DNA from: Craspedostauros australis
Lineage: Eukaryota; Bacillariophyta; Bacillariophyceae; Mastogloiales; Achnanthaceae
Assembly: GCA_026770025.1 (NCBI GenBank)
Contig: JAMXDE010000013.1
Span: 1,178,001 to 1,242,000, forward strand
Length of the DNA: 64,000 nt
Direction: 5' to 3'
The position numbers and the translations under genes were made by a program. Under the pieces are notes generated by a model. It was given only the letters and a program-made list of their open reading frames with translations. It did no database searches and was not told the origin of the DNA. Shown here one piece after another: positions 7,397 through 59,926 of this stretch; position 1 is the first letter of the stretch, and the number at the start of each line of letters is the position of its first letter.

Positions 7397-9715
7397 CTAA
7401 CCCGGCATGTACGGATGCTGCCTCGTGCCATCGTCGGCCCCCGTGCCATGATTTTGGAGCGACTCGTCGATGCCGTCATTCATGACGCGCCGGATCATCT
7501 GCGCCGTGCCCTCCCTCAGTGCCTGACCGCATTTGGAGACGGCCTTCTCGTCACCCACCTCGAAGTACGCATGCGCGGAATCGTTCTCGTCGTCACGTTT
7601 GAGGAAGCGGCCCTTCTTGGATCGCACAAAGTTGCACAAGTATCGAGCCAGGGCTCCCTTATCCCCCTTCGGCGCCGTGCAGTAGGCCATGCGGTACTTT
7701 CGGACGAGCTCGCGGAACTTGATGTTTCCGGGGTTGCTGTTGGTCAAGCCACCTCTGCCGAGCAGCACGTCGTTCGGACTGACCTCCGATGGAACGACCG
7801 GACGGGCCTTGTCGTAGTCCTCCTTGATTTCTGGCATCTTGTCTGCCTCCGCAAGCTCGGACCATGCCTGTGGCGGGGTGTACTCTTGGTATCGCACCTT
7901 GGTGCTGAGGTGTTGCGTTTTGGGACGTCCCTTGGGGCTCTTGTTCGCCGGCTCCGCGGCCGTGCCACTGGGTGCCTTCATAGCTCCTTCTTCCAGAGCC
8001 TTTGGAACGGCCGGCACCGTCTCGTCGTCCTCGCCACCACGTCGCGGGGAATTGTTCGACTTGGCGGTGGGAAAGTTAGATGGTGTGGTTGCTTGGCCCG
8101 CCAAAGCTGCCGCTCCTGCCGCTACCTGCTGAGCCGCCGTCAATTGTTGAGCCGCCGTCAATTGTTGAGCCACCGCCAATTGCTGAGTCGGTGTCAATTC
8201 CGCCCTTGCCATCATTTCGGGTGCATGGTGAATGATATGCTCCGGCAAACGCGGCGCAACAAAGCGCGGCACGGGCGACGTACCCTCATGCGGCGGCGCA
8301 GCGTGGAATATCTGCGGCGGCGCACCGTTGAGCATGGCGTTCGCAACATGAGGCTGCGCACCAAGCGCGGGATGAAATGCGGCTAACCCCGGTGGTGCCG
8401 CTGTCACGAACGCGGGATCCATCTTGGCCCGCAACATCGCTTCCAACTGCAGCCGCTGGTGACGTTCCGCCTCGAGCTCTCTTTGCAGTTGCAGAGCACG
8501 ATGACCGGCGTAAGGGATGAATGACGACGGCCTGTCAAGAGGCGCGGCCGACTGTGCGAGCCGCGGCGCTCCATTCTCCATGGCAAGCATGGCGAAATCG
8601 TGCGACTCCGGATACGGTGGCACTCCGAACGAAGCCGGCGGCGGTGGCGCAGCGCAAGGTGGTGCCGGGGGCGGCAGAACCAGCGGCGATTCGTGCGCAT
8701 CATCAAACTGCGATCTGGCGACTTGCTGATTCTTCCTCTTGCGACCGATGCGGATCTTTCCATCTTTGTCCAGTTTGACTGCGGACTTAGCGATATCGTT
8801 GGCCAATCTGATTTTCTTCGCGGTATGTGTAGTCCCGTACGCCTCGCTGGGTTTGGCCAGTCGCATCGCGCCACGAGCGAAGAGCGCCTCGGCTTGCAGG
8901 AGCTGCAACCTCTGATGCTCGGCCGCCAGTGGATGGACAAAGTTGGCCGCAGCATTGGGAGGAGGCAGTTGCATCTCAGGAGACTGCTTACTCGCTTGGG
9001 CCATGGTGAACAACGCTGCCGCATTCGCGTTGTTGGCGAGAGGAAAGTGCGCGTGATTGGGATCTTGCGCGAGGATCCTTTGCAACGTGGCCTGCGCATC
9101 GAGCTCGGCCTGAGCCTCCAGCTGCGCATGCTTCTGCTGCGTTGCGGTCGCTGCGTCGTCGCCCGGTTTGCGCTTGCCGCGCTTGTGCTTCTTTTGGCGC
9201 AACTTGGGATGCATGTCCTTCTTTCTGGTCTTGGCATGGTTGGCATGGTTGACGCGGTTGGCGCTGTCATTGTCGCTCATGGCAACAGCACTGGCATCAT
9301 CCGAATCGTCGTCTGCAGCGGGCGCCTCCTGCTGCTGCGATGTCGTTGCCGAACCGTTGCGACCGCCTCCCTTGGGAGTCCCCGCCTGCGCGTGATGCGA
9401 AGAAGCGGACGCGGAGGCAGGTTTCGAACTTGAGGATTGGGCCGCCTCGCGAAGGTGTTGCTGACCGTCCTTCCTGCTTGCGCGCTCGGTCTCGGCGCCA
9501 TTGGATTCAGGCTGCGGCCTCTCGTCGCGGCGCATGGCCGGTTCATCTGCCGAGGCCGGCGCCTTTGCTGCCGCAGCGGGGGAATCCGATGCGGACTCGG
9601 CGTCCTCCTTGGCAGGCTGCTCCGTCAGGTTGCTGAACTGGAGCAGAGCCAGAGTCGCATCCTGTTCTTGGTTGTTCATTGCGGATCCCTTTTGCGTCGC
9701 AACCTGCACGCTCAT
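7397..9715 (-). CDS. DUF6824-domain protein, Gln/Ala-rich
   Basis: The product is 772 aa from the ATG at 9715; another Met 12 codons downstream is possible. Most of the protein is low-complexity: Ala/Ser/Glu-rich N-terminus, a basic KKDMHPKLRQKKHKRGKRK stretch that may be a nuclear signal, Pro-rich segments, and a short imperfect repeat of AAQQLT near 8120-8190. The folded part is at the C-terminus, about 8 kb down to 7.45 kb: NDVLLGRGGLTNSNPGN, then RYLCNFVRSKKGRFLKR, then YFEVGDEKAVSKCGQALREG. This is the DUF6824 type (N-D-V-L-x-G-R-G-G...G-N...F), known chiefly from diatoms and suspected to be DNA-associated. Role unknown. A transcription-related function is only inference from composition and basic residues. 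Confidence 0.85.
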   Translation of the reverse strand: MSVQVATQKGSAMNNQEQDATLALLQFSNLTEQPAKEDAESASDSPAAAAKAPASADEPAMRRDERPQPESNGAETERASRKDGQQHLREAAQSSSSKPASASASSHHAQAGTPKGGGRNGSATTSQQQEAPAADDDSDDASAVAMSDNDSANRVNHANHAKTRKKDMHPKLRQKKHKRGKRKPGDDAATATQQKHAQLEAQAELDAQATLQRILAQDPNHAHFPLANNANAAALFTMAQASKQSPEMQLPPPNAAANFVHPLAAEHQRLQLLQAEALFARGAMRLAKPSEAYGTTHTAKKIRLANDIAKSAVKLDKDGKIRIGRKRKNQQVARSQFDDAHESPLVLPPPAPPCAAPPPPASFGVPPYPESHDFAMLAMENGAPRLAQSAAPLDRPSSFIPYAGHRALQLQRELEAERHQRLQLEAMLRAKMDPAFVTAAPPGLAAFHPALGAQPHVANAMLNGAPPQIFHAAPPHEGTSPVPRFVAPRLPEHIIHHAPEMMARAELTPTQQLAVAQQLTAAQQLTAAQQVAAGAAALAGQATTPSNFPTAKSNNSPRRGGEDDETVPAVPKALEEGAMKAPSGTAAEPANKSPKGRPKTQHLSTKVRYQEYTPPQAWSELAEADKMPEIKEDYDKARPVVPSEVSPNDVLLGRGGLTNSNPGNIKFRELVRKYRMAYCTAPKGDKGALARYLCNFVRSKKGRFLKRDDENDSAHAYFEVGDEKAVSKCGQALREGTAQMIRRVMNDGIDESLQNHGTGADDGTRQHPYMPG

Positions 9716-11023
9716 GTCTCCGCAAGCAGCTGTATCGGTGCTTGTATGATTAGTACCCCAGCAGAGAGTGCAGCACCACGAGCAGCTCGTACAGTATGAT
9801 GTTCTGCAACTGCTCTGCGACTGCTCTGCGACTATCCGTGTGTGGTCCAAGGGTCTCCACGTGTGCGCTCGTGCGGTATGTACTATTATGTACTATTATG
9901 TACTATTAGCGTGCTCGTGTTTGAATGGTATTATTTGAATGGTATTATTTGTGCGACGGGTCTTCCACAGATGCGTGCAATGAAGCACTCGCGCTCGTTC
10001 GAGCCACTCAGGAGGTGTTGCCGAGTCGTTGGGTGGAAGGAGGAATGGACAAGTCACACAAGGGGATGGAACGGAGGCCTCCCTTGCCACCTTTGCCTCC
10101 TCAGAGTGTTCGTACCCTGCAGAGCCCGATTTATTCGTACTTGTGTCCGTGGAACAGGGTCGTCCACTCCTCCTGACAAACTTCACGCCTCGTCTCTTTC
10201 CCACTTCCACAAGCGCGGCCGCCCACGACAACACATCGCCCACACTGCACAAAATCGCCCACGCAGTACCGCCAAGCCACATCGACAAAGATCCTCCCCA
10301 CCGCAGTCGTTTTTGTGACTCATACTTTAGCCCCAGCATGAACATCAATGATCACGTCCATGTACATGATTTTCTGACACTTCACACAACTACTTCTGAG
10401 GATAACAACCGATCATTTCTCCGCCTTGAATTTGTCTGTGACTCATCACTGTGAATCACAAACAGGATTCCTCCTGGTTCCACACAATTTGTTCAGTTAC
10501 CGCGACTGAGATTGCAAACCCACAACACGACCAATCACTGCGGCCACACCGTCACACCAAAACGGTCCCGTTTAGCCACGGGTGATGTCTGGGAATAGGA
10601 GGCGTGACGGCCACGTGCGCTGTTGCTACAAGCATTCTGCCACCATTACTGCTATACTATGATCACACGATGGCACAGCACACTCCGCTCCACTCTCCCA
10701 ACACTCTCTCACAACACCAAAGATGACAATAGATTGTAGTTTATTGTATTAACAGCAAAAGGCCAGACCACTACCCCGTGTTCTGGAAACTCCTTTGCGT
10801 GCGGTTTCGAGCTGTGCTGTGCTGTCTCTCTCTCGCTGTCTCTGCAGCGAGACAGGAAGGGAGCACCACCCACCCAAAGCAAATTGACCATCTAGTCGTA
10901 TTCATTACGCGACGCTGGTCTTCATCTAACGATCCAGAGAGTGCTGCACTTGTATAATACGTTCCAACACGGCACATGCGTCGCATCCGATACCATGCTG
11001 CGACTCCTTACATACCAGTATGC
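9716..11023. other. Intergenic with short tandem repeats; likely promoter of the DUF6824 gene
   Basis: No supportable gene. Immediately upstream of the DUF6824 gene there are three perfect copies of the 10-mer TATGTACTAT (9877-9906), followed by a 14-nt unit TTTGAATGGTATTA repeated twice (about 9920-9949). The rest (about 9950-11023) has no pattern I can interpret; it includes the 3' flank of the SET gene. Confidence 0.5.
9877..9906 (+). repeat. Three tandem 10-mers TATGTACTAT
   Basis: Exact threefold repeat read directly from the sequence. It lies about 160 bp upstream of the DUF6824 start codon. Confidence 0.9.
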
Positions 11024-14000
11024 TCAGCTCTTGCGCTTCTTGGGGAATGACGATGTGATGTTCAGAATGTCATCAACATTGTACAGGTCATCCGTGCCAA
11101 CCTCGGACGGCGCCGCCGACGTGGCCGCCAGCAGCATCGCCTTGCGCTTGATGCCCTTTTCGTGCTCCCGCATCTCGTCGTCCTTCCTCTTCGCGTCGCC
11201 CATCACGCTGCCCTTCAGCGACATCCAGTCCTCGACGAAGTGTCTGCGGAACAACGTGGAATCGCTGTTGCTCACAAACTCGGCCATGTACGGATGGTTC
11301 AGAGCCTGCGATGCCGAGATGCGCTCTTTCGGGTCCATCTTCAGCATCTCGCTGATCAGATCGATCGCCCCCTGGTAGGTGCGACGGTCGTTCTCGTCCA
11401 TGTGGAACATCCGCTCGATGTTGCGCTTGTACTTCTTCTCCCCCTTGATTTGGCCGTAGTACGGAAACCTCGTGAGGTCTCGAAATTGCTTCTTCGACGG
11501 CGTCCCGGCGACCTTGCAGATCGCGCGCATCATGGACTCGCGATCCCGGTGCGTGAAGGGGGGCCTGCGGAGAAGGAGATGGGCCAGCAGACATCCCATC
11601 GCCCACACGTCCGTCTCCATGGTGTGCTTCGGCGAACCAAGCAACATCTCGGGGGCCTCGTAAGGGCTGCTCATGGGTCCCTTGTCCTCACCGGATCTGG
11701 ACTTCTTGATCTTCCTGTGTCGCTCCTTGTCATTCTCGCAAAGCTTCACCGGATCAGCGTGGGCGTCTTCATCGCTGCAGACAGTCGATCGATACAGGTT
11801 GGCAATCTTGACAACCCCGCTGTGGTCGACAACGATCTGATCGCTGGCCAGATTCCGTAGCAGGACGTTGTTGGAGTGACAGTGAGCCAAGGCCGAGATC
11901 AGATCGTGGAACCAGGACACCAAAATCACCGGGCTGAGATGTTTACGCTCGTTTCCACCACCATCACCACCACCAACATCACCGACCGCAGAGTCACAGG
12001 GCTTCTTTCTGGCCATGAATTTTTGCAGGATGAACGGACTTGGCTGGAACAGCAGATGCGGACCGCTCAGCATGTCCTTGCGCCGCCGTTCCTTCTGTGC
12101 GGCAAGCTCATTCTCCTCGCTCGTTCTGGTCAAAGAGAAAATGTCTTCCTCGATGGATCGGCTGATATCTTTGCCGGCATGCTTCGCGCTTGGATTGCTG
12201 TCGTTGTTATCGTTCTTGCTGGCGGCGTCCGCGATGGCCACAGGGAGCACGAAGTTGGGATGGCCGCATGGCGATCGGATGAGTTTGTGCAGGCTGTTGA
12301 GGAGCTGCATCTCCTGAAGAGCGTAGGAAGAAAATCCCATTTGCTGCACGCTGTCATTCTTACGTGGTTGCACTCGTGCTGCATCCTTCTTCGGCCTCCC
12401 CCTTTCCTTCAGGAAGGCAAGCTCTCTCTTCGACATCTTCTCAGGTGGCCAGCGCTGTAATGACACCGCCATGTGCCGCTCTTTCGGCTTCGACGTGCCC
12501 TTTCCCAACTTGTTCAGAGTGGGCAGGTCGGTCGATGTACTGGCGAAGGCGTTGGAGATTTCTGAGAGTGCATCGAATTCTTGTCCGTTGGCTGTCCTCA
12601 CCAAGAACATGTCGCAGATGGAGCCCGACGAACTCTGTCCCAACCGAGGCGGTATCCACCATCTCATCCCGACATTCCGAAGGTGCTGCTCCGCAACTTT
12701 TGCTGGCAGTGCGCACTTTCCGCCCGTCTTGCGTCCCCAGCTCTGATCGTCGACAAGGCTCGACTGAACCGTCCCCAGCCAACCGTCGGACGTCCCGATG
12801 TCCTCCATGCACAGCAGCCCCGCCCAAAGCTTGGACTGCATGATCGTATCGTTGGGCCCGTTTGATTCGGCATCTCTCGCATCCGACAGGCCATGCCCTT
12901 GGCGCCTCTTCACGGTCTCCTGCAGCAAGTGCTCTGCGATGGCCAGCGATCTCCACGATCCCTCCAACACGATATCTTCTGACACACCATCCGGGTTCTT
13001 CTCCACCATGATGTTGCACCCGCTCTCGGCAATGACACCATCCATCTCAGGGATGATGCAGGACTTGACCAGGTCTCGCGGAAGGCCAAGAAACGCCCTT
13101 CGTTTCCTGGCGCGGGTGCTCGTGACCCAGTACCTCATCTCAGCTTGGGTGGACCTCACGGGGCCACCAATGGCTCCCGTGATGCCGCGTGTCATGCAGT
13201 CGAAGCAGATATTGCTGATCATGGGCAGCATATTTGATAGCTGCTTTCTGGCAGACGCATCGCGCAGCTGCTGATGGACGGGGCTCTTCTTCGAAATGAA
13301 AGCTGTCGTATTCACGAACGCAGCGATTGTTTCTGCCACTTGATGGACCTTGACGGGTACCAATCTTAGCACAAGAAACATATTTTCGAGATTCACCTGC
13401 ATGAAGGCAAGGGCTGCAGCGAACACGTATTCGGCGCCATGCTTCAGCCATACTGCGGGGCCGGAAGCGAGGATCGGGGAACTGCAGACGAAGCGCAGCG
13501 CCGACTTTGCAGTCTTCTCGTTCGCGATGTTGGCGTTCGGACTGGCGGCGGCATCAACCATCCAGTCAAGTCCTTTCCAGAACACGTCGTAATCGAGAGT
13601 AGCGAGAATCTCCTTTTCTGCCGCCACGACTCTTTCAGCCAGCACCGATACTTCCTCCTTTGCCGAATCGAAGAGACTGCCAGGGTAGAAGATGGCGTAC
13701 GCAGCTTCCAGGACCTGCTCCAGCGTCTTCCAACGGACCAGTTTCTGCGACTTGTTCGCGATGAAGAGGCATGCCAACTCGAAGTCTTTTATCCGCAAGG
13801 CAGATCGCTGCTCGATGGTTTGCTTCGTTACGCTGAGGTATCGATAAAAGATGATGACGGCATGAACGGCGACGGTTGGTTTGTGGTCCAACGTATCAAC
13901 AATGTCGGCGATTTCCACGCATGCATTCGACACGACCCGCCCGTCGAATGGCGATCCTTGCTGCATCGAGGGCGATGGCGCGACCGAGCTGTGATTTGGC

Positions 14001-16546
14001 ACTGCGTGGCCGTCGTTTGCTTGCGAAGGAGAACCGGATGATTTGGTCGGTGCCTGATGGGCCAGAGTCCAATCACGCCCAAACATCCAAGCGTGCTTTC
14101 GAATGCCGTGATCGCGGTACGTTTCGACTTGCAACCGAATCAGCTCTTCTGCGAGCGAAGCCCGGTCTTGCTCTGACATCGAGTCAACTGCATTGTCACC
14201 GTCAATTACCACCGGTCTTTCAGCCCCCTTCCCATCCACTCGCAGATGGTCGCCTGTCATCGAGTCGACGGATACAGACGCCCCAGTGACTTTGTGGACC
14301 AAATCGAAGAAAGCGCCGCCGTTTCTCATCATGTACGGCTGGTAAATTCTGTCCGCGCCCAGGTGGAGGTACCTGACACCCCTCGACAGCTCAGCTGCCC
14401 GTGTGCTGATCAAGGTCCAGATCTTCGGTACTTCCTTGGGGTCGCAGCCGAAGTACACCTTGCGTGGCCCGAGCGGGTCAGATTCAGCGACGCGCCTGTT
14501 GGCAGTGTCGATCCGTCCCTTGTCGGATGGGACTTGCACCCATATGCTGCACCGCTGGGTGGTCTCGAAGGAAGCAAAGAATGGGGCCTTGCTCTTCAGA
14601 TCTTCACTGACGCCCTGCGCTCGTCGGTCCCGAACCTGCTTGAGCCCATTGCCTCCTCCTGATGTGTGCGATGATCCGCTACCCATGAGGAGATCAAGCT
14701 GCGAGTGAGTTAGCGATCCACCGAGGAAGCCCAGGTCTTTGTAGATGTTGTGCGCTGTTTTGGGCGTCTTCTTTTCGCCGCAGCAGTGCAACACCTGCGT
14801 CCACAGATGCTCCTTGGCCATGTCGAGGTCCGAAAGCAAGGTCGCCTCTACCAGGAGTCTCGCAATCAGCTTGCTCTTGGATTCGGACGGTGCGAACGCG
14901 ATGCTCACATTGCGGCATCGATCTCGTATGGCCGGCATTCGCAGATTGACGTCTGCGACTATTGATCGGGGCATGATCAATTCGGCCGTGAATTTGCGCT
15001 GGCCGGTTGATCCATCGCCCTTGTCTCCTGCAGCAAGCGAATCCGCCGGATTCTTGGCGATGCCATTCGATTGCTCCTTCTCCGCCTTCTGGAACCACTC
15101 CGCCCAATACTCCTGCGTCTTGGTCAGGATGTTCATTGCTCGTATCACATCCGACCCAAACACGAGGACCTTCCACACCGACCCGTCGGTCGATTGTTCC
15201 AGCGCCTTGAACTTCTCCACCTCCTCTGGCGTCGTAGGACCCAGCGGAGGTTTGCACATCTGCGTGACCGAGATGGTCACCTGGCACTTGCGGCGACAGT
15301 CGTCGATGACATTGAGCTCGTCGAATTTTTCCTTGATGGGAGTTTGGACGAATATGTGGGTCTTGTTGGGAAGGTTGCCAGTGAGGTTGGACGCGGTCAG
15401 GAGACTCTTTGTGAGCGTCGGGGCGGCCTTAATCTTTTTGCTGATGATGAATTGCTCAGCTTGTTCGTCCAGTATCATCCAATCCTCATTCTTGAGGTCC
15501 TCCCAAACCTCTTCATGATCGTGCCGGTACATGACAAGATGCATCCTGTTGTCCGGGTTGTACTGCGTGACGTCTCCCCAAAAGTACTGCTGGGTCTCCT
15601 TGCTGAAGATCTGGATGGATCGGTTGATGATCTCCTTCCCCGGCTGCTGCAGGAACGGCTTCTTCCAATGCGCGGACAGACTGGCCTCGAGCTGCTCCTC
15701 CTCCAGCGACTTTGGCAGTTCGAGCGTTCCGCGACACGTCGGTGCCCCGCAGTGACACTTGGTGGGCGCCCTTCCCCGGCGCAGCTCCCATTGGTAATCG
15801 AACGACAACTCCGTCCCAGCAGCGATGTCCGTTTTGGCGACGATGGCATTTCGATTGATGCCTCGGACCTTCCATTTCTCAACCAGGCAGTTCGGCTCGC
15901 AGGAATGGTTGATGTACCTCGCGATGCCTCCCTTGTGCCGAGCATCGAGATACGTGGTGTTGTCCAGCGACATGATGTAGAGCTTGCGCTCATTGCGGTA
16001 GGTTCGGAATAGGCGGTTGACGTAGGATTTTGGAATGGCCCTGCCGACGTACTCGGTGAGGAGGTCCCCCTTCTTGGTGTCCTCCAAGACCTTGAGACCG
16101 AGGCCCTTTTTCTCGGTTTCGAATAACTTGAGCGGCTTCCACTGCTTGTTTTGCAGGCGTTTGTTCCCGCAGTACTGGCCAGTGGGGCAGCTGGGCCCGC
16201 ATTCCTCCATGCAGGCGTAGAGTTCGCAATCTCCGTCGAGGCAGCATATCTCGACGTGGCCGTCCTCCGAATCGTCGCTTCTGATCGGGATGCAGCTGCA
16301 CTGATCGCCCATGGGATCCGAGCGTGGGCGCCTCATCATCTCGCCGACCATCTGGCTGTCGGGCACGTCGTTGGCCCATTCGACCTCGTCGACTAGTATG
16401 AAGTCTCTTTCCTTCTGCTTGATCATGTCTTCGTTGTGCCGCCTCAGCTCTTCCAAGTCAAAAGGTTTCGGGGGAGTTGCGGGCGAATCCGTTGTCGGTG
16501 GTGGGGGCGGAGGGGGCGGGGATTCATCTTCTGGTTGAGACGTCAT
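11024..16546 (-). CDS. SET histone methyltransferase fused to cyclin fold and CDK12-like pseudokinase
   Basis: The product is 1840 aa from the ATG at 16546 (upstream in-frame start codons are GTG). Domain order: Pro-rich N-terminus; Cys-rich AWS about 83-128; SET about 135-253 with NHSCEPNC at 213-220 and FDYQW; post-SET CHCGAPTCRG about 264-273. This is the SETD2/NSD/ASH1-like H3K36 class. A WGDVT segment (about 321-370) may be Tudor/PWWP-like. KH-like segments follow around 395-480 and 1150-1210 (tentative). A cyclin fold is at about 871-992 (VAVHAVIIFYRYLSV, then FELACLFIANKSQKL, then EKEILATLDYDVFW). A CDK-type kinase fold is at about 1340-1757; its FPYYGQIKGEKKYKRNI resembles the CDK12/13/Ctk1 subfamily. 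The kinase lacks catalytic residues: Lys to Ser1362, HRD to LRN (Asn1565), DFG to NLY (Asn1583). There is one uninterrupted frame. Likely nuclear, on elongating RNA polymerase II (inference). Confidence 0.9.
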   Translation of the reverse strand: MTSQPEDESPPPPPPPPTTDSPATPPKPFDLEELRRHNEDMIKQKERDFILVDEVEWANDVPDSQMVGEMMRRPRSDPMGDQCSCIPIRSDDSEDGHVEICCLDGDCELYACMEECGPSCPTGQYCGNKRLQNKQWKPLKLFETEKKGLGLKVLEDTKKGDLLTEYVGRAIPKSYVNRLFRTYRNERKLYIMSLDNTTYLDARHKGGIARYINHSCEPNCLVEKWKVRGINRNAIVAKTDIAAGTELSFDYQWELRRGRAPTKCHCGAPTCRGTLELPKSLEEEQLEASLSAHWKKPFLQQPGKEIINRSIQIFSKETQQYFWGDVTQYNPDNRMHLVMYRHDHEEVWEDLKNEDWMILDEQAEQFIISKKIKAAPTLTKSLLTASNLTGNLPNKTHIFVQTPIKEKFDELNVIDDCRRKCQVTISVTQMCKPPLGPTTPEEVEKFKALEQSTDGSVWKVLVFGSDVIRAMNILTKTQEYWAEWFQKAEKEQSNGIAKNPADSLAAGDKGDGSTGQRKFTAELIMPRSIVADVNLRMPAIRDRCRNVSIAFAPSESKSKLIARLLVEATLLSDLDMAKEHLWTQVLHCCGEKKTPKTAHNIYKDLGFLGGSLTHSQLDLLMGSGSSHTSGGGNGLKQVRDRRAQGVSEDLKSKAPFFASFETTQRCSIWVQVPSDKGRIDTANRRVAESDPLGPRKVYFGCDPKEVPKIWTLISTRAAELSRGVRYLHLGADRIYQPYMMRNGGAFFDLVHKVTGASVSVDSMTGDHLRVDGKGAERPVVIDGDNAVDSMSEQDRASLAEELIRLQVETYRDHGIRKHAWMFGRDWTLAHQAPTKSSGSPSQANDGHAVPNHSSVAPSPSMQQGSPFDGRVVSNACVEIADIVDTLDHKPTVAVHAVIIFYRYLSVTKQTIEQRSALRIKDFELACLFIANKSQKLVRWKTLEQVLEAAYAIFYPGSLFDSAKEEVSVLAERVVAAEKEILATLDYDVFWKGLDWMVDAAASPNANIANEKTAKSALRFVCSSPILASGPAVWLKHGAEYVFAAALAFMQVNLENMFLVLRLVPVKVHQVAETIAAFVNTTAFISKKSPVHQQLRDASARKQLSNMLPMISNICFDCMTRGITGAIGGPVRSTQAEMRYWVTSTRARKRRAFLGLPRDLVKSCIIPEMDGVIAESGCNIMVEKNPDGVSEDIVLEGSWRSLAIAEHLLQETVKRRQGHGLSDARDAESNGPNDTIMQSKLWAGLLCMEDIGTSDGWLGTVQSSLVDDQSWGRKTGGKCALPAKVAEQHLRNVGMRWWIPPRLGQSSSGSICDMFLVRTANGQEFDALSEISNAFASTSTDLPTLNKLGKGTSKPKERHMAVSLQRWPPEKMSKRELAFLKERGRPKKDAARVQPRKNDSVQQMGFSSYALQEMQLLNSLHKLIRSPCGHPNFVLPVAIADAASKNDNNDSNPSAKHAGKDISRSIEEDIFSLTRTSEENELAAQKERRRKDMLSGPHLLFQPSPFILQKFMARKKPCDSAVGDVGGGDGGGNERKHLSPVILVSWFHDLISALAHCHSNNVLLRNLASDQIVVDHSGVVKIANLYRSTVCSDEDAHADPVKLCENDKERHRKIKKSRSGEDKGPMSSPYEAPEMLLGSPKHTMETDVWAMGCLLAHLLLRRPPFTHRDRESMMRAICKVAGTPSKKQFRDLTRFPYYGQIKGEKKYKRNIERMFHMDENDRRTYQGAIDLISEMLKMDPKERISASQALNHPYMAEFVSNSDSTLFRRHFVEDWMSLKGSVMGDAKRKDDEMREHEKGIKRKAMLLAATSAAPSEVGTDDLYNVDDILNITSSFPKKRKS

Positions 16547-18139
16547 TGTTGCTCGCTTCGCCTCGCTTTTTGCGGATGATGGTTGGCCGTCCCTTCGATT
16601 TCGAGTAGTTTGGTTTGATTTCAGCAGCCGCAGACCACGGACCACAGACCTTCACACACAGACGTTCACTGGATGGCTTCTTTCGGTGCGACGAATGTGT
16701 GATGTTTGTGATGTATAATATGTGCTGTATGGTAAGATATGTGATGGGCGTGGAGTGTCACCAATGCTCTGTGGTGTAATATGTGCGAGGATGGTGTATT
16801 CTGGATGGTGCTTTGGCTGCAATAAATCGCTCCAATGCTGGGCCGTGCTGGGCAATGTTGCGGATGTGATGTATGATAGATGTGATGCGGATGTAATGAC
16901 AGTGGCGGTGGCAACTCTGGGGTTGGATGGTGGACTCTGAGAAGTAGAGCATGGAATGACTTTCGTCGAGGCAATGCGACTCTGCTGCCACTGTCTGATG
17001 CGGCTGATGTGGTTGTCACAAGTCTCCCACCGACGTGATTGCTGTTGGACCAGAGTCCCTCGTGCTGATAGTCGTAGTCGTACCAGCGACACTGACGTCA
17101 ATGCTCGGAGGGAGGACGCGTTCGGGTATGGTACCTGTGCCAATTGATTGGCAGCGTCTATGTCTGTCGAATTTCAGGTGCACCTCGTGATACAAAACGT
17201 GGAATCAATGACCTGCTGTCTGGTGTGCAGCCTGTCCTGTCGTCTCAAAGAGGTGCCGCGGATTCTGTTGCTTTCGATTTCGGTGTGGCGATCAGTCACC
17301 GTTTTTGTGTTTGAGGACCATCAACCAAGCAACGAAGCAACGAAGTAGCGAAGCAACCAAAACAGAGACAGAGAGGCATCGACAACACCCACGGAACAAG
17401 GCAACATCCATCGCCTCCAATCGTGTCGTTGGCGTGTTGGGCATTTATTTGTTGTGTCGTTTCGATCGATTCATTGGATGACGGACAGAAGGCCAGACTC
17501 TGCCGCCAAAAAAGAAGTGTTTCGTGGTTTGTCTGTGTTTGTGACTTCGCCATCGCCCTTCCTCCAAGCAGTGGCTGTCTTGTGCCTTGTCACGGTTTTC
17601 TTGTGATCGCGATGGCTCTGGTGTTGGATCCAACCCAGGTGAGATGACAATGACCAAAGGGGGGAGAGGGAGGAAGCACCTGAACACCCAGTGCACTGCA
17701 GAGGACAGATTTATGATTGTCTGTTCCGATCTATCTGCCCATCCATCCATCCATCCATCCATCCATCCGACGAACCACAACTACACTAGCTCGGAAGAAG
17801 CCGACGGATCTTGGTGTATTCTCTCGTGCAAGCACAAGCGAAGAGCATCAACATCGGTATCGACAACAACATCGACAACAACATCGACATCGGCAGAAGA
17901 CAGCTTCCAAGTCACTTCGCCGAAGAGTGACAATCCGGACCAACCGACAGAGCCTGTTCACTCCAACCGACGTGTACTCCAACCCATGCAACTCTGCACT
18001 CTCTAGAGAGTACCACACGTACCATACTCTGCTCTGCTCCACCATACTCCACTCTACATCACCCGACTCTACATTACCCAACTCTACGTTGCTCGACTCG
18101 CACTGGCACGGTATCAGCCACCCAAGCATTATACCCGCC
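16547..18139. promoter_or_regulatory. Divergent intergenic region between SET fusion and p24 genes
   Basis: No gene seen. The two flanking genes start head to head, so this 1.6 kb must hold both promoters. It contains a (CCAT)n microsatellite at about 17738-17768. No core promoter element is convincing by eye. Confidence 0.4.
17738..17768 (+). repeat. (CCAT)n microsatellite
   Basis: About seven and a half uninterrupted copies of the tetranucleotide, upstream of the p24 gene. Confidence 0.9.
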
Positions 18140-24936: not shown

Positions 24937-27546
24937 ATGGCAAGCGAAGGTTTGACCATGATGGAGCTCGAAAACGGCACGCCGCCCGACCGAAATGGCG
25001 ACGATACCGAGACTCTCCAGCAAGGACTCACAACCCTCGGGGAACCACCTCATCGTAGCTGTGTGACAGGGAGAAGAGCGGAGTCAAATGGGCCAGAAAT
25101 GAGCACACCAACCCCAGATGAGTATACACTCGAATACCGACCAAGAACAAGCACGTGGAAAACCACGGAGAGGAAGTACGGCGATGACATTGAGCCATTT
25201 ACGAAGGCCAACGGCCCTCACTCCATTGACTACATGGCAGGTCAAATGTGGAGTGCGAGAGCAAAGTGGTACGGCAGAAGTGAGACGGAGGCATCGGCAG
25301 CCAACCCAACCGCCAAGGAATGGGAGATGTTCTTCCGCCGCGTACTCAATGGCAGACACACTCAGTACGGGCCCATGAGCTTGCCGTCCGACGACCCAAG
25401 ACGCCGGCGGGTGTCAATGGCCATCATGCGACTGGCATCCACAGACCCAAGGAAAGTGTTCAAGGTCAATGGAGACGGATGCATCAGCTCGTGCAGCAGA
25501 CCAGCTCGAGCCTGGGAGGCAGCAAAACGGGTGCTCGGCACGAACTACGACATTGGCACAGCGCCGGCAGCAGACGCACTCTCAGAGTCATCCAACCACA
25601 CAGCGTCATCAGACCAACGCCTGACGCCACGTGCCGCCAGCATTGATGCAAGTGAAGGACCGCCCTTGCCATCACATGGAGCGAAGCCAACCAAGCGCAC
25701 CAGGATATCTTCGTTGCCCACAGGCCAGGCAGCAATTGCCGGCACCAACATCAACAGGTTCGCCCTGCTGAGTGACGACAAGCCCGATACACAACCAGCA
25801 CCAGAAACACCAGCGCAACCGCGAACCCGCCAACCAGCAGGCAACCGCCGGAACAGCGATAGTCTGGAAACGAACGCTCAGACAGCGGCCAAACCTCCGT
25901 CTGCGTGGCCACGAGCGGCAGGAGTCACATTTGACAATGCCAACCTCGAGACAGCCGTCGAAACGGCATCTGTGGAGTCAGACACCAGCCAGATCCTCAT
26001 AGGGCAGCCCAGCCTACAGCATACCACGAGGTTCATGTTCAAAGTCAAGGCGGACCAAACGGAGCCAGACACAACCAAGGCACTCAGAGACAGGATCGTG
26101 GCATGGTTCAGCCAGGTCCAAATCGTGGATCCGTCGGCTGGTATACTTCCATGGAAGGAGTCTCCGGAGGAGAGAGGGTACATCCAACATTCAGGTCAAG
26201 TTCCCACCGACCTCAAGGAGCTCCGCACCTTTTTCAAGGGGCTCAGGGCATCGACGATGGAAAGCGGGTTGACTTACACCAACGTGCGCATCACCACCGA
26301 CATGCACCCCACCAACATCACGGCCGAACGCAACGCGGAGATGAATCCCTACTACTACAAACATCAAGAGGGCCTCTACATCAACACTCTTCAGGTGGAG
26401 AATACCAAGGAAATCGGGTTCCTCTTGTACTCGGGCGGATTCAACGATGTTAAAGGCACGATGGAACTTCTCAACCAGGAATTTCGAAGGCGCCACAAAA
26501 ACACAAGAGTGGGTGGCAAACTCAAGAACTTGGTGGTGGTGTGCGACAAAACCAGGGAGGCTTACCAGAAGAGTGGTAAGCACTGGACAATGCAACCGTG
26601 GAGGGCGATCAAAGTGGAGACGGAAAGTTCACAGGCAGCCATTGCGGTCGAAAGGCTGTGCGACCTGCTCAATGAGGATGACAACAGGCCGGCAGGCGTT
26701 CGCATCAGGTTCCTCCCCGAGGCCAGATACGAACAGATGACGGAGAAGAAGCGGCGCCACAGAGGCATGCTGATCCAGAAACATCAAGCAGTGCTGACCA
26801 GCCTCAAATACGTCAACACGTCAGGCGTGGCCAAACTGGACGATCCAGTCCATGGCGACAACCGCGAACACATCACCCTCAGATCACATCTCATGAGCAT
26901 GAAGGATGCCGACGGGAAGCAGATCTTCCAGAGCCTGGACATGGCGAGGGCCCACGACGATCAGCTCATCGCACACGTCTTCGAGGAGAGTATGGCACAA
27001 GCGTCAGCCATCATGAGTCTGCTCCCAGCCATCGCGCGTATCGAGCTTGGAGTCAAGACGGAGAAATGGTTCAGCCCTGACGCCTGGTATGCCAACCTCA
27101 ATGTCACGTACGACGCAGAGACGAAAGAGTACAATGCTCCCGACAACAGCAAGCTGGAGCACCTCCTCGAAGAAGAGTTTCCTGCCAGTGTGGTGATCAC
27201 AAATCTCCCGACGGAACTGCTCGACAAGCCAAGTTATAGGCCCGCAGCCCTGGACTATCGAAGCCTGTTCGGCAGCGGCACCACTATCGGGTCGCACATG
27301 ACAATGCATTCGGCAGTCACTGGTGTTCCGGGGTCTGGGGACGCCGAATCCATCGCCACGACAGCATCCGAGCAGCGCCGAGAAGCCACCCGGGCAGCAG
27401 CCTTGGAGCAAGAACGCCAGCGCAAGGAGTCACTCAACAACGCCAGGCTGGAGATCCAACGAGCGGAAATCGACAAATTGCGAGCGGAGTTGGAGAAGCA
27501 TCAAGGCAACGCCGACCCCGGGGCCGGGGCACCTCCGCCATGTTAG
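24937..27546 (+). CDS. Retrotransposon ORF1 protein
   Basis: The product is 869 aa, intact. The N-terminal 360 residues are low-complexity, rich in Thr, Ala, Pro and Asn. The central 400 residues look folded: TRFMFKVKADQTEPDT, later GILPWKESPEE, TFFKGLRAST and EIGFLLYSGGFNDVKGTM. I recall this arrangement from gag-like proteins of diatom retroelements (memory, not verified). The C-terminus is an Arg/Glu/Ala-rich helix likely to form a coiled coil (about 815-860), which fits the trimerising role of many LINE ORF1 proteins. I see no CCHC zinc knuckle. Its stop codon overlaps the ORF2 start in the string ATGTTAG. Confidence 0.8.
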   Translation: MASEGLTMMELENGTPPDRNGDDTETLQQGLTTLGEPPHRSCVTGRRAESNGPEMSTPTPDEYTLEYRPRTSTWKTTERKYGDDIEPFTKANGPHSIDYMAGQMWSARAKWYGRSETEASAANPTAKEWEMFFRRVLNGRHTQYGPMSLPSDDPRRRRVSMAIMRLASTDPRKVFKVNGDGCISSCSRPARAWEAAKRVLGTNYDIGTAPAADALSESSNHTASSDQRLTPRAASIDASEGPPLPSHGAKPTKRTRISSLPTGQAAIAGTNINRFALLSDDKPDTQPAPETPAQPRTRQPAGNRRNSDSLETNAQTAAKPPSAWPRAAGVTFDNANLETAVETASVESDTSQILIGQPSLQHTTRFMFKVKADQTEPDTTKALRDRIVAWFSQVQIVDPSAGILPWKESPEERGYIQHSGQVPTDLKELRTFFKGLRASTMESGLTYTNVRITTDMHPTNITAERNAEMNPYYYKHQEGLYINTLQVENTKEIGFLLYSGGFNDVKGTMELLNQEFRRRHKNTRVGGKLKNLVVVCDKTREAYQKSGKHWTMQPWRAIKVETESSQAAIAVERLCDLLNEDDNRPAGVRIRFLPEARYEQMTEKKRRHRGMLIQKHQAVLTSLKYVNTSGVAKLDDPVHGDNREHITLRSHLMSMKDADGKQIFQSLDMARAHDDQLIAHVFEESMAQASAIMSLLPAIARIELGVKTEKWFSPDAWYANLNVTYDAETKEYNAPDNSKLEHLLEEEFPASVVITNLPTELLDKPSYRPAALDYRSLFGSGTTIGSHMTMHSAVTGVPGSGDAESIATTASEQRREATRAAALEQERQRKESLNNARLEIQRAEIDKLRAELEKHQGNADPGAGAPPPC

Positions 27547-30500
27547 CAAGCACCGCAAGCCGCGCGCAGACCAGCCGGCAAAGCGACAGGCACAGACTCA
27601 TGGGTCGATCAGGCACGGAAGAGGTGGTCAACCAATTCACCCCAGTTGGCGGCGACTCGCAACACAAAGCGCCAGGACACATAAGGGTGGCAGCCCTCAA
27701 CCTCAGCGGTCTCCCCGTCGACGCCACAGATCCCAAGTACCAGGATCTCTGGGAGACAGTTCGCCGTCATCACGTGGACATAGCGCTCCTGACGGAGGTG
27801 GGCATCAACTGGAGCAAGGTGCCCAGGCACATGCATCTGCACGAGCTCGTACAAAAGAACATCCCTCAGTCGCGCACAACTACGTCTCACAACAGGCACA
27901 ATGCTACTCGAGTGCGCCAGTGGGGAGGGACTGCGATCATGATCCAAGGCAGCACCAGAGGGCGCATACTGTCGTCAACGTCTGACACGCACAATTGGGG
28001 CAGATGGACCAGCATACTGCTACAGGGCAAAGGCGGCATCAAAGTACGCCTGGTGTCGACATACGTGGCCAACAAGTCGACCAAGACACCAGGCACAGTA
28101 TACAATCAGCTGGCGGCCAATGCAGCCGCAGAAGGCATCGACGCAGACCCTATCAGTCTACACATGCAAGAACTGCAACAACAAGTCCACCTCTGGTGTC
28201 AAGCCGGCGAGACGGTGATACTCGGAGGGGACATCAACATGGACGTGCGTGCGTCAAAGATGAGCACTATGTTATCGGAGGAAGGGTTGCACGAAGTGTT
28301 TTCGAGTCAGCACCAGACGCCGACGGCCACCCAAATCCGCAACCGCAACAACATGCAAATCGACGGAATCTGGACCTCGCAAGAAGCTACAGCCACGCAG
28401 TCAGGGGCCACACCATACGGCTGTTGGGACCACCGCATGATATGGGCCGACTTCTCGGCCACTCATCTCTTGGGACAGGGCAACACGCCTACGCAACCGT
28501 TCCGGGGGCGCCGGCTCCAGCTACAAAGCCCGACGACAGTCAACAGGTATCTGGAGGAATATGCCAAGGCGGCGCAACAACTCCGGCTCCTGGAACGAGC
28601 TATGGCCTTGGAGCAGTCCATATCGGATCAGCCTCTCACTGCCCATCAGTCGGCGACCATCGAAAGAATAGACGCAGACCGCACCAAGGCCATGCTCCGA
28701 GCCGAGCGGGGATGTCGAAAGGTTCGCATGAGGAAGGTCCCCTACTCGCCTTTGGTGGCCCGAATACAGAAGGCCCACAAATTCTGGACAGAGTCTATTA
28801 GGCGCAGACAGGGCCACAAAGTGAAAGGATCGACCATCGACCGACTAAAAAAACAAGCACAGCTCTGCCAAGTCCGCACGAAGGGCATGAGCATCGCTGG
28901 GATGACAATGGAGCGCAACCGAATGTGGAAACAACTAAAGCAAGAGAAGAAAATGGCCGCGCAGCATCGGGTGGATTTTCTGCAGTCCAACGCGGAGTTC
29001 GTCGAGCACAGCGGGGGCAACCCAGAAAAGTACAAGCGGCAACTCGTGGAGAGGGAAGAGACACGGGCGAGATTCCGACGCATCAAACACGCTCTGGCCG
29101 GTTCCGCCCTCGACTCTCAGGTCACGATGGTTGTCCACGACGGTCCTGGCGGCGATGGGCGTGTGCTCACAGAGCCAGAGGAGGTGGCCAAGGCATGTTG
29201 CGAAACCAACATCGCGAAATATCAAGCCGCATGGTCCTCCGATCTCTGCGTGGGAAGGGTCAGCCGCAAAGTCGGGAGGTACGGCACATCCCCGGCGGCG
29301 GACGCAATCATCGAAGGGCTGGTGCCTTCGCAAGTCCGAACAGGTACAGCGGAACTGCTGCACGCCTTACGCAGATCGCCCCAAGCCACCCCGTGGGCAC
29401 CAATGGATACCGTCATCTCCACGGAAGACCATGTGGAAGGGTGGCGCAAGATCAAAGAGCGCACATCATCCGGGCCGTCAGGCATTCACTTTGGTTGCTG
29501 GAAGGCCAACACCAAAGACCCTCAGCTCGCGGCGATCGATGCCATCATGAGGTCCATCCCATATCGCACAGGCTACAGCCTTAGCAGGTGGCAGCAGTGC
29601 ACCGACGTGCAGCTGTGCAAACAGCCGGGCAACCTCAGTGTCACAAAGACCAGAACCATCGGGCTGATGGAGGGAGACTTCAACATGAACACGAGACAGC
29701 TGGGGCGGACCGCCCGCAGACATGCAGAAGCCAACTCAACCATTGCTGCAGAACAATACGGCAGCTGCCAAATGCACACGGCGCAAGAAGTCCTGGTCAA
29801 CGTGTGCCTGACCGACGACATCATGCGGATCTCCGGGCGCGACGCTGCGGTGTGCTCCAATGATGCCAAAGGATGCTACGACCGCATTTCCCACCCGGCG
29901 TTCGGGATGGCGTTGCGCCGGCAAGGCACACCTCGGCAACCTATTGACAGCGTTCTGTGCACCCTGCAGAACATGCGGCACAGGATCAGCATGGGATCGT
30001 GGGTCTCCCTGACAAGCTACTCCGGCACTCACCTCCCGCGGCCCATCCAAGGCTTGGTCCAAGGGTTAGGAGTGGCCCCCACAGGGTGGCTGCTAATCAG
30101 CTTGGCACTCATAGAACGAATGCAAGCCAAAGGGTTTGGATTCACGTACGGAGAAACAGCGGATGCAATGCAACGGCTCGTCTGCTTCGCGTATGTGGAT
30201 GACACAAACCTGGTCCACACGCTGAGGTCGCGTGATATTCCGTCCCAGTGCCGGGAATTCCAGTCGGTGGTTTCGCAATGGGAGTCCATGCTGACAGCCT
30301 CAGGGGGTTGCCTCGCGCCGGAGAAGAGCTTCTGGCAGCTCGTCAGGTTCAAATGGAGCAACAGTTGATGGAGCTACGACAAGTCGTGGCGTCCACACGA
30401 CATCCGAATGAAAGGAGCAAATGGGGAGGACCAAGTGTTGCGCCATGCGCCGGTCCACCAGGCCAGCAAGTACCTTGGCATGATGCAGCGGCGGGACAGG

Positions 30501-33238
30501 AACCAGACTGAGCATGCGGCATATCTCCAAGGGAAGGCTGAGGCGTGGGCGGCGCACATTCGGACGGCCCGCATCTCCAAGCAAGACACCGAAGTTGCGC
30601 TCAAGGCAGTTCTTTGGCCAGCGCTCGAATACTCCCTGGCAGCCACTACTCTCACGCAGGGCCAGTGCGAAAGCATCATGAGGCCGGCGCTCATGACGGC
30701 GCTCCCGCACATGGGGATCGTCCGAACCATCGCGAGGCAATACGTCCATGGGCCCAGGAAGCTCAACGGCCTGGCCATCCCGCACTTGTTCACGGTCCAG
30801 TGCAAGGCACACCTGGCGATGATCTGGCGTCACTTCGAAGCCCAGACCACCACGGGCAGCCTGCTCCGCGCATTGTTGCTGCAGTTTCAGCTATGGGCAG
30901 GCACGTTGGACCAGCTGCAAGCCCAACAGCACCGCTGGCAATGCTGGACCGCTCATTCTTGGTGGTCCAGCACCATCTGCAAGCCCAACAGCACCGCTGG
31001 CAACGCTGGACCGCTCATTCTTGGTGGTCCAGCACCATCTGCATGATGACTGAGAACGGATTGACAGTCCATCAGGTTGCACCGACACTCACGATGCCTC
31101 GCGAAGGTGATGGGACCATCATGGAGGCCTTCTGGGAACGGGGCGCTGATGAAGGTGACCTCTGCAAGGCCAATGCAGTGCGCGTGCACCTTCGGGCTTT
31201 CTGGGTGTCAGACATCTGCGACGCGGCTGGCACCGGCATCCACCCAGTGGTTGCCCAGCACCGTCGAGCTCCAAGGATCCAGGAGGACCTTGTTTGGCCA
31301 GCGGCGGTGCCTCCTTCGCGCCAGGCGTGGGCAGCCTGGGACAACATGGTCCGCACTCTCCTCGTCGATGACAGACCAGGCATGATCCTGCGCAAGCCGC
31401 TTGGCAAGTGGAAACACCTCCGGAAGTTTCGGGTGGTACAGGACGAAGACGGGTCGGTATGGTGGCGGTGCTCCGGATCTCCACTTCAACGGGTCCAGAC
31501 ATTGGAGTTTCGGTGTCGCCGCGTCGGTGGCAGGGCTGGCATGGATGTCGACGAATACCGGGGGTTGGCGACGGTGGTGTCTATGGGGGCGGAAGTTGCG
31601 CAGCGACGCCCACACTCCCTATACGAGCACATTGCGCAGCTTGGGGGGCTGGCAGCGGCCATGCTTAAGCAAGTACGTATCCACGGTTCGGCGCGGGCCA
31701 TCGCCGACTCCATCGTGCGCGGGACGTGTGTGGCATGCTGTGACGCCTCTGCCAAGGACCAGCGTGGGTCCGCGGCCGCGGTCATACAGGACCGGCTTGT
31801 CGAGCCTACCGCGGGAATTCTCATCCAGTCGGAAGTCCCGGAAGGCTCGCGAGTGATGGACTCCAACCGTGCAGAAACGGCGGGAGTGCTCCTCACGATG
31901 CAGTTCCTGAAAGCGTTTGCACAGTGGGCGCAGGTGCAGGGGTCCGCTACTATAGCATGCGACAGTATGCAAGCGATCAGGGCAAGCACGCGGGCACAAC
32001 TCCTCCAAGCCGACGACAACGACTACGACTTGCGCAGCGAGATCCAGCATGTTCTGCGGACGTCAGCGGTTTGCTGCGAGGTCCAGCACGTCAAAGGCCA
32101 TGCCGACTCCCAACTCGGTCACCAAATCTCGGCGTGGGAGGTCCTGAACGTGGTGGCGGATCACGAGGCTGGCCAGCAGTGGCAAGCAACGGACGCCGCA
32201 GGGGCATGGGGCACGGTGCAAGGCAACCCCAAGTCCACGGGTTGGGCAGTGCGTGCTGGGGGTGACTGGCTGTCTGAAGCCAGCTACCATGCGGTATCGG
32301 ACGCGACGATGACCGCCAAACTGCGACTCAAATGGCGCCAGCGGTGGGGGTCGTTGGACAGATATTCGGTGGACTGGGCACCGCTCCAGAAGGTGATGAG
32401 CACATGGAGAGGCGGCAAGCAACGCACCATACTCAAGCTGGCGTCGGGTAATGCGGCGACTGGCAGAAACATGTGCCGGCGCCAGCAATCTGACCGGACG
32501 GCTTGCCCCTGCTGCGGGTGTGTTGAAACCAATCAGCATGTGATGCAGTGCAAGAGCACTGCAAGTCAAGAGCTCTGGGACGCGTGCATCCAGCGCGTAC
32601 GTCACATCATACAGCCGCCCAGGGTCAAGCGAGATGCAGCTCAACTTTTGGTCAAAGCCCTACGCGTGCTGCGGCAAGGAGGCGCCCCACCCCAAGGCAT
32701 CCGGCGGTCTACCACTCTGGCCATCGAAGTTGCGCAGCATGGAGTTGGATGGGACGGCCTTCTGTGGGGTGCATGGTCGGTGGAGTGGATCCGCCATAGC
32801 CCGAACCCCCAGCCATCTTCCAACCGCCGGCGACAGGTCTTCTGGCAGGCGGAGGTCACTCACGAGCTGTGGCACATGGCGCTCCAACAGTGGGCAAGCC
32901 GCAACCACGCGCTGCACGATGCAGGCGAGCGCAGCATGATGTCGCAGCGCATGCACTCATATTGCCGTGCCTTGCTTGAATTGCCATCGGCATCTGTTCC
33001 CCGCCACCTCCGCCAGCTGGCTCAGCACCTTCCCGACGCTGAACCCCGGAAAGCCGAGTGGCTTTTGTCCATGCTACACGGCATGCCACACGTGCAGGCC
33101 ACTGTTCCGCCCGAGCAGATGGCATGGCTGCGTCGTCGAGCCGCCAGCCATGACGAACCTACAACCCAGCCAGCGGCGCCCACTTTCCCCCCGCGCCGGC
33201 CCTCCAACCAGCAAGTGCGACTAGCAAGCCTGGCGTAG
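27540..33238 (+). pseudogene. Retrotransposon ORF2: endonuclease, reverse transcriptase, RNase H (disrupted)
   Basis: One long coding unit with two lesions: an in-frame TGA at 30366-30368 and a frame change caused by a 62-bp tandem duplication (30915-31038). APE-type endonuclease, residues about 48-305: AALNLSGLP, LLTEVG (Glu86), ILGGDINMD, IDGIWTS and DHRMIWADF. Reverse transcriptase, about 640-940: SSGPSGIHFG, motif A NDAKGCYDRI, PIQGLVQGLGVAPTGW, and catalytic AYVDDTNLV (YVDD rather than the usual YADD). After the lesions comes a ribonuclease H with CCDASAKD (about 31737), NRAETAG, ACDSMQA and KGHADSQ, then a CPCCGC...H...C finger near 32500-32552. The C-terminal region contains LWHMALQQWASRNHALH. 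The TGA interrupts KWSN.*.WSYDKSW, so the frame clearly continues beyond it. This copy is probably not autonomous now. Confidence 0.88.
30915..31038 (+). repeat. 62-bp tandem duplication that shifts the ORF2 frame
   Basis: Copies at 30915-30976 and 30977-31038 differ at one base (AAT versus AAC in GGCAAYGCTGG). Because 62 is not a multiple of three, the duplication moves translation out of frame; removing one copy restores a continuous frame into the RNase H region. Confidence 0.93.
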
Positions 33239-46564: not shown

Positions 46565-47568
46565 GGTTGCGAGACGCCACGAAGAGAGGGGCAACTGCCG
46601 CTCTCAGCACGCACTTGTGGTGACCGGCAGAGGTTGGTGCTTTGTGGTATCTGTACGAGCTACGGGTCCAATACGGACATAGAAGTACGAGTACGACTGT
46701 GTGTGCTACGACCTATGTATCGCAGTAGGTATGTCGGTGGACTTCGAATAGGATGATGTGCTGGGCTGGGTGCATTCAGCGCGACCTCCGAACAACTGTG
46801 TGTGGCATTCGTATACAGCAGTATGGAGCGGCTGTTGCGATGGTGCTCTTCGCTGATCTGGTGCTACAGGACGAGCACGCGAAATCGCATTGATGCGGCA
46901 GTGCGATTGTGAGCGGTGCCTCGGGTTGCCTCCGTTTGTGCTGGCTGCCATCCTTTGCTGTGGTCGCTGCAGGCTTCGCAGTGGAAACTGTACCGTGGCT
47001 CTCGTAGCCGATCTTGTTCCGCCATTGTCGCAATCCGGAAACCACACATCTCTGTGTTTGCGTGTTTGTGCCTTTGAGGGTTTCGATTGTTGCGCTTGTG
47101 GTCGGGAATCATTAATCCCGCTAAATTAATTGTATATTTGATGGATGTCGCACCTCCCATTGGTTTTGTTTTGGTTGTGTCTGTGTTTGTCGTTGTTCGT
47201 TGTTCGTTGTTGGTTGGGGCCTCACAGAGGCCGCCAAGGCATAATCATTGCTCTGCATCTACTACGACTACTCCAGCATATGCAATAGAATGTATAATAT
47301 CTTTGTACCACACTATTCCATGATGAAGTATTGCACCACGCAAAAAGTCCATGCTGTGATGCTGGTGCGCTGATGGTTTCGAATGCACAGGTTGTGCTAA
47401 TATCATCGTCGCTTGTCGCTTGTCGCGATCATCATCTCTCCAGAGAGTACGACACTTGCCTTCGTTGCACCTGGTCCTTGGAATGAAAGAATAATCGCAG
47501 ATTGACGAACATGTGCCCACTCTACTCTCATGGTACTCGTACGAGTATATACTCCATGATGCTCCGTC
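46565..47568. promoter_or_regulatory. Upstream region of CHD gene and 3' flank of sulfotransferase gene
   Basis: No gene seen. It includes GTACGAGTAC at 46685-46694, about 120 bp before the CHD start codon, and the 14-bp palindrome TACTCGTACGAGTA at 47534-47547, 22 bp beyond the sulfotransferase stop codon. Confidence 0.45.
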
Positions 47569-58733: not shown

Positions 58734-59926
58734 ACGAGCTTGGCACAAGTTTCATGCCGATATCGCTATAGCAACCCCCCTACTAGTACCCGTACGAATA
58801 TACCGCCTACTTACTCGAGTATCATTCAGATTGCCGCGCCATATGGGCAGTGATTGAAAGAGGAGACGATCCATCAATTATCTCGCCCGAAGAGCCCGTG
58901 TTGTCTGCAGCTCCGGACCATGATGGTACTCTTTTTTGTGTCTTCTCGATGCCGTTTGCCTTTTGTGACGGGCGTGAAGCCTCCGAGTACGATCTACAAT
59001 TCCCTTGTTGAACATCCGACCACTAATCACGTGCAGCTGACAAGATTCCATGTCCGTGCACATATTGGGTGTTGATGCTGTCCTGTCTCATCCTACATCC
59101 TTCAAGGCACCCAAGTTACATCACAAGGTGTGAACTTCTTGCTGATCATGTTTCATGCTCCAGAGAACTGCATTGGTGCCTCCACAATGCTTCTTCGCGG
59201 TGGACGAGGAGAAAGGCTATTCCACGATCTGTGTGAGGATGTGCAATAGTCAAGAGCCAAAAGGAAGCACCGCACCAGTCATCTGCATACTCTGCGCACA
59301 GCGAGCTCCAGAAGTTCCTCTCATCGATCAACTGAATAACAACTCTGACGGCGAGTGCTGCTGAGTCGGGCATCAGCGAAGTAAGTGTGTTCTCACCAAT
59401 GAGTACGGAGGGAGCCATCATAGGGTATTATATCGTACATCTCTCGTTCGTCTCCGAGCCAAGAACGACAAGTGCTCCGTGATGGAAACATCGCGTCTCA
59501 AAACGGGATTCGTAGTATCCAATCTTCATCCTGATTCGTATTTTGTCTGTCCGTCGAAAAGGCGAAGCATCCGAAAACGACCAATTCTGGCGAAGAACGC
59601 AAAGATTTCGTATCATCTGCCCCCCCCAACCATGCAAGCCTCCGCTGTCGAGACTGCGCAAAAGTGTGTCAGGAACCTCCCCTGGCCCCCTGATCTTTGG
59701 ACCTGTCACAAACAGCAGAACACGAGAGTGGGCGCAGCGACGCCACAAGCACAACCTGCAGCAACGCCTTCAGCATCTGCAGGATCCGTCGCGTCTCATT
59801 CGACCAGTACAAATACTGCCACCACTTCCCACTTCCCATACATATTACATGTACACACTAATGAATACTGATACTCGTCGTGCTCCACGACGTGCTGCCC
59901 GTTTGACGATTCACAGCTCGGAAGCG
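58734..59926. other. Intergenic, no supportable gene
   Basis: Between the FKBP and U32 genes. GTACCCGTACGAATA near 58786 is of the recurrent GTAC type. The open frame in phase with the U32 gene extends upstream of 59849 but lacks protein-like composition. Confidence 0.45.

Follow-up and report, generated by a model that had tools for sequence, protein, structure and literature searches.

The diatom Craspedostauros australis encodes, in one long open reading frame, a protein that can be read with a little better than even confidence as a SETD2-type H3K36 enzyme carrying a non-catalytic C-terminal docking or regulatory module. This module would comprise a cyclin box of the transcription type, a KH fold, and a pseudokinase resembling CDK9/12. 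The frame (P0001) occupies positions 11024..16546 on the minus strand of the window, the 64,000-nucleotide stretch analyzed here, which corresponds to positions 1178001-1242000 of a contig labelled C11 in a searched genome assembly of 74.8 Mb and 90 contigs. It opens with an ATG at 16546, runs for 1840 codons, and closes with a stop codon at 11024-11026. The part attached to the methyltransferase probably steers that enzyme and does not phosphorylate, because its kinase has lost the catalytic residues.

The N-terminal AWS-SET-post-SET unit (15722..16321, minus strand; residues 76-275) is likely a SETD2-like enzyme. In the PDB, the whole protein is most similar to SETD2 chains (1.8e-39, residues 76-275), followed by ASH1L and NSD1-3, and the SET domain proper (15791-16105, minus strand; residues 148-252) is matched by Pfam SET at 1.5e-18. 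Human SETD2 and yeast Set2 share with P0001 the AWS-SET-post-SET order, the zinc cysteines, and the motif NHSCEPNC. Identity to SETD2 extends over 79 of 196 aligned residues, FDYQ is retained, and 12 of the 14 SETD2 cysteines are in place, including the seven AWS cysteines and the post-SET ones. The Pfam AWS model itself scores 12.1 bits on the protein, below its cut-off of 23.3. The best matches are reciprocal: P0001 leads to SETD2 in the PDB, and the human SETD2 unit leads in the genome to P0001, which tops seven matches: it scores 143.6 bits and the runner-up 80.9, a gap of 63 bits. By this search, which scores the best candidates only and does not prove it to be the sole one, P0001 is the clearest predicted Set2 of its genome and the only clear one. 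The original prediction of an H3K36-type unit is borne out by these matches and by the retained cysteines, and the protein presumably methylates H3K36.

In contrast to SETD2 and Set2, P0001 has a cyclin box, a KH fold, and a pseudo-CDK and is without an SRI match. The SRI domain is absent from the eight Pfam families listed for the protein at E <=10, a search in which HMMER filters may lose a divergent SRI; an SRI search of the genome returned no match, but its controls returned none either. SRI has been reported absent in C. elegans MET-1 (PMC10421102). Residues 319-346 (15509..15592, minus strand) are at most suggestive of a Tudor-like piece: on a 101-residue segment, Pfam PTM_DIR17_Tudor gives E 0.0064 and 16.7 bits, below its cut-off of 27.2.

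Residues 882-988 (13583..13903, minus strand) are supported as a cyclin box of the Cyclin_N type. Over the whole protein, Cyclin_N scores 22.1 bits, slightly below the cut-off of 23; on the segment of residues 850-1160 the score is 25.8 bits (E 9.4e-6), above the cut-off, as is that of the box in a Cyclin_N scan of the genome. L082, a cyclin L/T/K-type protein encoded in this genome (best PDB match cyclin L1, 6.1e-15), also scores 25.8 bits with Cyclin_N, so the P0001 score is typical of a divergent transcription-type cyclin in this genome. The predicted cyclin box is upheld by this match, but other tests of it are weaker. Comparison by hhalign gives 40.2% against a four-row profile of transcription cyclins and 4.4% against the A/B/D-type (mostly cell-cycle) cyclins of the genome. 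The hmmsearch score of the box on the transcription-cyclin profile is reached by 11 of 1487 scored shuffles (2000 made). The box has no PDB match at E <=10, and Pfam finds no Cyclin_C in either the whole protein or the segment. In a single-sequence model with a mean pLDDT of 43.3, the cyclin region is all helical, at a pLDDT mostly of 29-46. The conserved Lys and Glu of cyclins contact the CDK, and these residues fall opposite Lys932 (in ACLFIANK) and Glu977 (in AAEKEIL) in alignments that include L082. One of these, of 3 rows, aligns the linker badly and served solely for hhalign and for the Lys and Glu columns.

Other cyclin genes were seen in the same genome. Two of them, about 89 kb apart (L018 at C35:286058 and L019 at C35:375488), are identical in their displayed parts and apparently reflect a recent duplication. 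Two large frames with Cyclin_N matches, of 1652 and 1643 amino acids, lie in opposite orientation on one contig (C65:158193 and C65:188373). Considered as further fusions, these frames were set aside; the one viewed is cyclin-like, with long low-complexity stretches and no kinase by eye.

An intact elongation-type CDK12/13-like kinase is predicted at a separate locus (L035, C4:766557-767582), where the motifs HRDIKSSN and ADFG are intact and the best matches are CDK13 and CDK12. A second kinase grouping with CDK12 (L042/L053) is also present in the genome. The cyclin box might act in trans, recruiting or activating an intact CDK9/12-type kinase so that the methyltransferase brings the CTD kinase with it and the pseudokinase is a spare scaffold. 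Both of these kinases and the aligned Lys932 and Glu977 would suit such an arrangement, which is nonetheless unlikely: the box has a nearer partner in the pseudo-CDK of its own chain, its sequence is divergent, and no Cyclin_C match points to a second cyclin fold. The reading of the C-terminal part as a docking or regulatory module, with the box perhaps paired in cis, is preferred to recruitment in trans.

A single KH fold is supported near residues 1149-1218 (12893..13102, minus strand). The GxxG loop of KH domains usually binds RNA; it is missing here, where an alignment with hnRNP K KH3 places a gap and a replacement opposite the GKGG of that domain. KH-like segments had been proposed in the plural, and this one fold is what stands of them, as no KH was found by sequence in residues 682-869 and none is among the Pfam matches anywhere in the protein.

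The C-terminal kinase part (11276..12520, minus strand; residues ~1343-1757) is a predicted pseudokinase in which the CDK fold is kept and catalysis is lost. Pfam Pkinase matches the segment at 1.1e-24. Compared by hhalign with a profile built from six CDKs encoded in this genome, the domain reaches 99.8% from the alpha-C helix through to its end. The best PDB match is CDK12 (7e-22), with CDK13 next and PHO85 and others close behind. The stretch FPYYGQIKGEKKYKRN (11420..11467, minus strand; residues 1694-1709) aligns with LPYFNTMKPKKQYRRR of CDK12, so that the CDK fold with a CDK12-like stretch is found as it had been described. In its CDK fold, its CDK12-like stretch, and a cyclin box in the same chain, P0001 resembles human CDK12/CDK13-cyclin K and yeast Ctk1-Ctk2; it differs in its catalytically dead kinase, and in yeast and animals kinase and cyclin are separate proteins. 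In the P0001 domain, extra sequence is inserted in the N-lobe/hinge region and the activation segment is long. A single-sequence structure model of the kinase region has a mean pLDDT of 38.2; at such confidence, this model and that of the cyclin region speak neither for nor against the two proposed folds.

The catalytic loop is degenerate: FLHRDIKCSN of CDK12 is aligned with VLLRNLASDQ (11837..11866, minus strand; residues 1561-1570), in which HRD becomes LRN, Lys becomes Ala, and Asn becomes Gln. In the DFG region (KIANLYRS; 11786..11809, minus strand; residues 1580-1587), KLADFG of CDK12 is aligned with KIANLY, and DFG is replaced by NLY. The beta-3 Lys is replaced by Gln and the glycine loop is shortened in a MAFFT alignment with seven kinases encoded in this genome, the single alignment on which the N-lobe residue calls rest. 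Because every checked catalytic or ATP/Mg-binding residue is replaced, the kinase is judged catalytically dead. Residues retained are APE, the Asp of DxW, Glu1412 of alpha-C, and the Arg of DPKERI. As a control, the canonical HxD..K..N and DxG motifs occur in 25 of 30 genome kinase fragments retrieved with CDK12; the other five are the C-exon of L035 and the second piece of L059 (no loop match), L071 (HSDVKPEN and IDFG), and P0001 twice.

Assignment of the pseudokinase to a CDK12 subgroup was considered and is unsupported. The tree gives it a very long branch (5.09) and does not settle its placement; human CDK12 groups there with the genome kinases L042 and L035 (support 89/85). In a search of the genome with human CDK12, P0001 ranks 14th of 33. 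Among the kinases of its own genome, L033 gives the best local match to its kinase part (52.2 bits), closely followed by several more. NCBIfam returns only distant kinase and SET families for the protein, far below their cut-offs.

Divergence on this scale, the loss of all catalytic residues, and a KH fold without its GxxG loop would also suit the view that the C-terminal half is decaying, carried along since an old fusion and of little function. That is a rather improbable account. The frame remains intact for more than 1000 codons past the SET unit, with coding bias throughout, and the kinase part has kept residues of its structural fold while losing those of catalysis. Moreover, three Phytophthora species have kept a fusion that joins these two kinds of protein (PMC3019232).

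The frame and its coding signal support one continuous gene. A stop-free run of 1840 codons at the composition of the frame has a chance of ~1e-31, and GC is higher at the third codon position than at the second in all 80-codon blocks. A codon-usage coding score, with three Pfam-confirmed genes from the window as its training set, was computed for overlapping 50-codon windows in six frames. The score is positive for P0001 in 72 of 72 such windows, linkers included (lowest 3.4, median 14.4 bits), and the P0001 frame is the best of the six in 69; an antisense frame outscores it in three (651-700, 676-725, and 1101-1150). Both flanks, of 300 bases each, have negative scores in all three sense frames, and upstream of the ATG the frame is still open as far as a GTG at 16645. 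The single uninterrupted frame of the original prediction is confirmed in this sense, since it is open and has coding signal along its whole length, short of proof of a single transcript. A whole-protein search of the genome gives 17 matches, among which P0001 itself is the sole one longer than a domain and no second copy of the SET/cyclin/CDK combination occurs.

Two adjacent genes sharing an open frame by chance (a Set2 gene beside one for a pseudokinase or a cyclin), or a single gene interrupted by in-frame introns, would be a very improbable source of such a pattern. The gene is known from DNA sequence alone and the antisense frame is higher in three windows, which leaves these readings some room; the absence of a stop over 1840 codons and the positive score in every window, linkers too, argue against them. 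Hardly credible at all is the covalent linkage of three activities with an active CDK12-like kinase, as originally envisaged, which the CDK fold and FPYYGQIKGEKKYKRN would favor and which is rejected on the replaced HRD, catalytic Lys and Asn, DFG, and beta-3 Lys and the shortened glycine loop in the CDK12 and seven-kinase alignments. Since the kinase residues are lost, the three activities are reduced to one likely enzyme joined to a cyclin/KH/pseudo-CDK module.

Several other genes are found in the window. A protein with DUF6824 (E 3e-23), a domain typical of diatoms, is encoded next to P0001 at 7400-9850 on the minus strand, and Rfam has no match in positions 9800-17800. Endonuclease/exonuclease/phosphatase and reverse transcriptase domains share one frame at 27540-30365 on the plus strand, in the manner of a non-LTR retrotransposon; the long frames beside this one (24937-27543 and 30545-33235) have no Pfam match at E <=0.001. 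About 25 kb from the Set2 gene is the frame of a CHD-type remodeller (41699-46594, minus strand) with SNF2, Helicase_C, and two chromo stretches. Another gene with a SET domain, which an intron appears to interrupt, is located at 50335-52137 on the minus strand; its SET match in the genome search (C11:1228842-1229594, E 1.4e-7) has two TGA codons inside. Peptidase_U32 and a DUF3656 collagenase domain are combined in one frame at 59543-63046 on the plus strand.

The architecture of P0001 is already known in part, from a methyltransferase/dead-CDK fusion of Phytophthora (PMC3019232). In 2010, an N-terminal histone-lysine methyltransferase fused to an inactive CDK-like kinase was reported for P. 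infestans PITG_14137, with orthologues in P. ramorum and P. sojae, “but not other species” (PMC3019232). By its published description, PITG_14137 resembles P0001 in the order of methyltransferase and inactive kinase, and it differs in that the account of it drawn on here mentions no cyclin or KH part (PMC3019232). The suggestion that no description had been published consequently fails for the methyltransferase/inactive-CDK fusion and holds, within that account, for the cyclin and KH parts. The 2010 paper is the only one found on PITG_14137 in the open-access literature. Phytophthora also has four CDKs with C-terminal cyclin domains (e.g., PITG_21617) and a catalytic Asp-to-Asn replacement, described as not found in two diatoms (PMC3019232). 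These resemble P0001 in joining CDK and cyclin in one chain and in the Asp-to-Asn change; unlike in P0001, the kinase precedes the cyclin, and no SET domain is reported in the passages concerned (PMC3019232).

Among diatoms, the SETD2 homologues of several species have motifs IV-VII in common beyond AWS-SET-post-SET (PMC10421102). These homologues are like P0001 in adding further parts to the catalytic unit; the words “cyclin” and “kinase” are absent from the main text of that paper (PMC10421102). Work on H3K36 and PsKMT3 in P. sojae is cited in another paper (PMC12825968). A SET-cyclin-kinase protein was not found described in the open-access literature consulted, brown-alga papers included. 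Pattern searches for relatives of P0001 gave no match in IMG/VR and 17 in bacterial and archaeal genomes, none of them a relative; a CDK-profile search of IMG/VR gave 18 pattern matches, again none a relative. What is apparently new is the presence of such an architecture outside the oomycetes, with a cyclin box and a KH fold, in the clearest Set2 of its genome.

In the preferred reading of P0001 as a methyltransferase with a docking or regulatory module, the SET unit would methylate H3K36 and the cyclin box would perhaps pair with the pseudo-CDK in cis. The cyclin/KH/pseudo-CDK part would tether the protein to elongating RNA polymerase II or to nascent transcripts and so fill the role of the SRI domain of yeast Set2 and human SETD2, while the separately encoded intact CDK12/13-like kinase would phosphorylate in trans. 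SRI is the domain that recognizes the phosphorylated Pol II tail, and a short region of SETD2 binds SPT6 as well (PMC12572195); in yeast, RNA helps to retain Set2 and Ctk1 on chromatin (PMC5457138). The binding of SPT6 and the RNA-aided retention of Set2 imply that routes besides SRI exist. A co-transcriptional role for P0001 is plausible.

In the prevailing view, methylation of H3K36 in the wake of RNA polymerase II requires a CTD kinase to act first and Set2 then to read its product. A Set2 with its own cyclin box and a dead CDK suggests an alternative solution to the problem of targeting, and for this pseudokinase both a partner protein and a pathway can be guessed. A broader and more doubtful proposal is that this is a stramenopile-wide Set2, common to diatoms and oomycetes, in which the SRI reading of the Pol II tail has been replaced by an attached relic of an elongation kinase (cyclin box, dead CDK12-like kinase, and KH) that places the H3K36 writer on the elongation complex. 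If this tentative view were true, the coupling of Ctk1/CDK12 to Set2 that is known from genetics would be built into a single chain. Were the architecture common to diatoms and oomycetes, it would be an old stramenopile feature, and the link between elongation kinase and methyltransferase would become testable in a tractable diatom.
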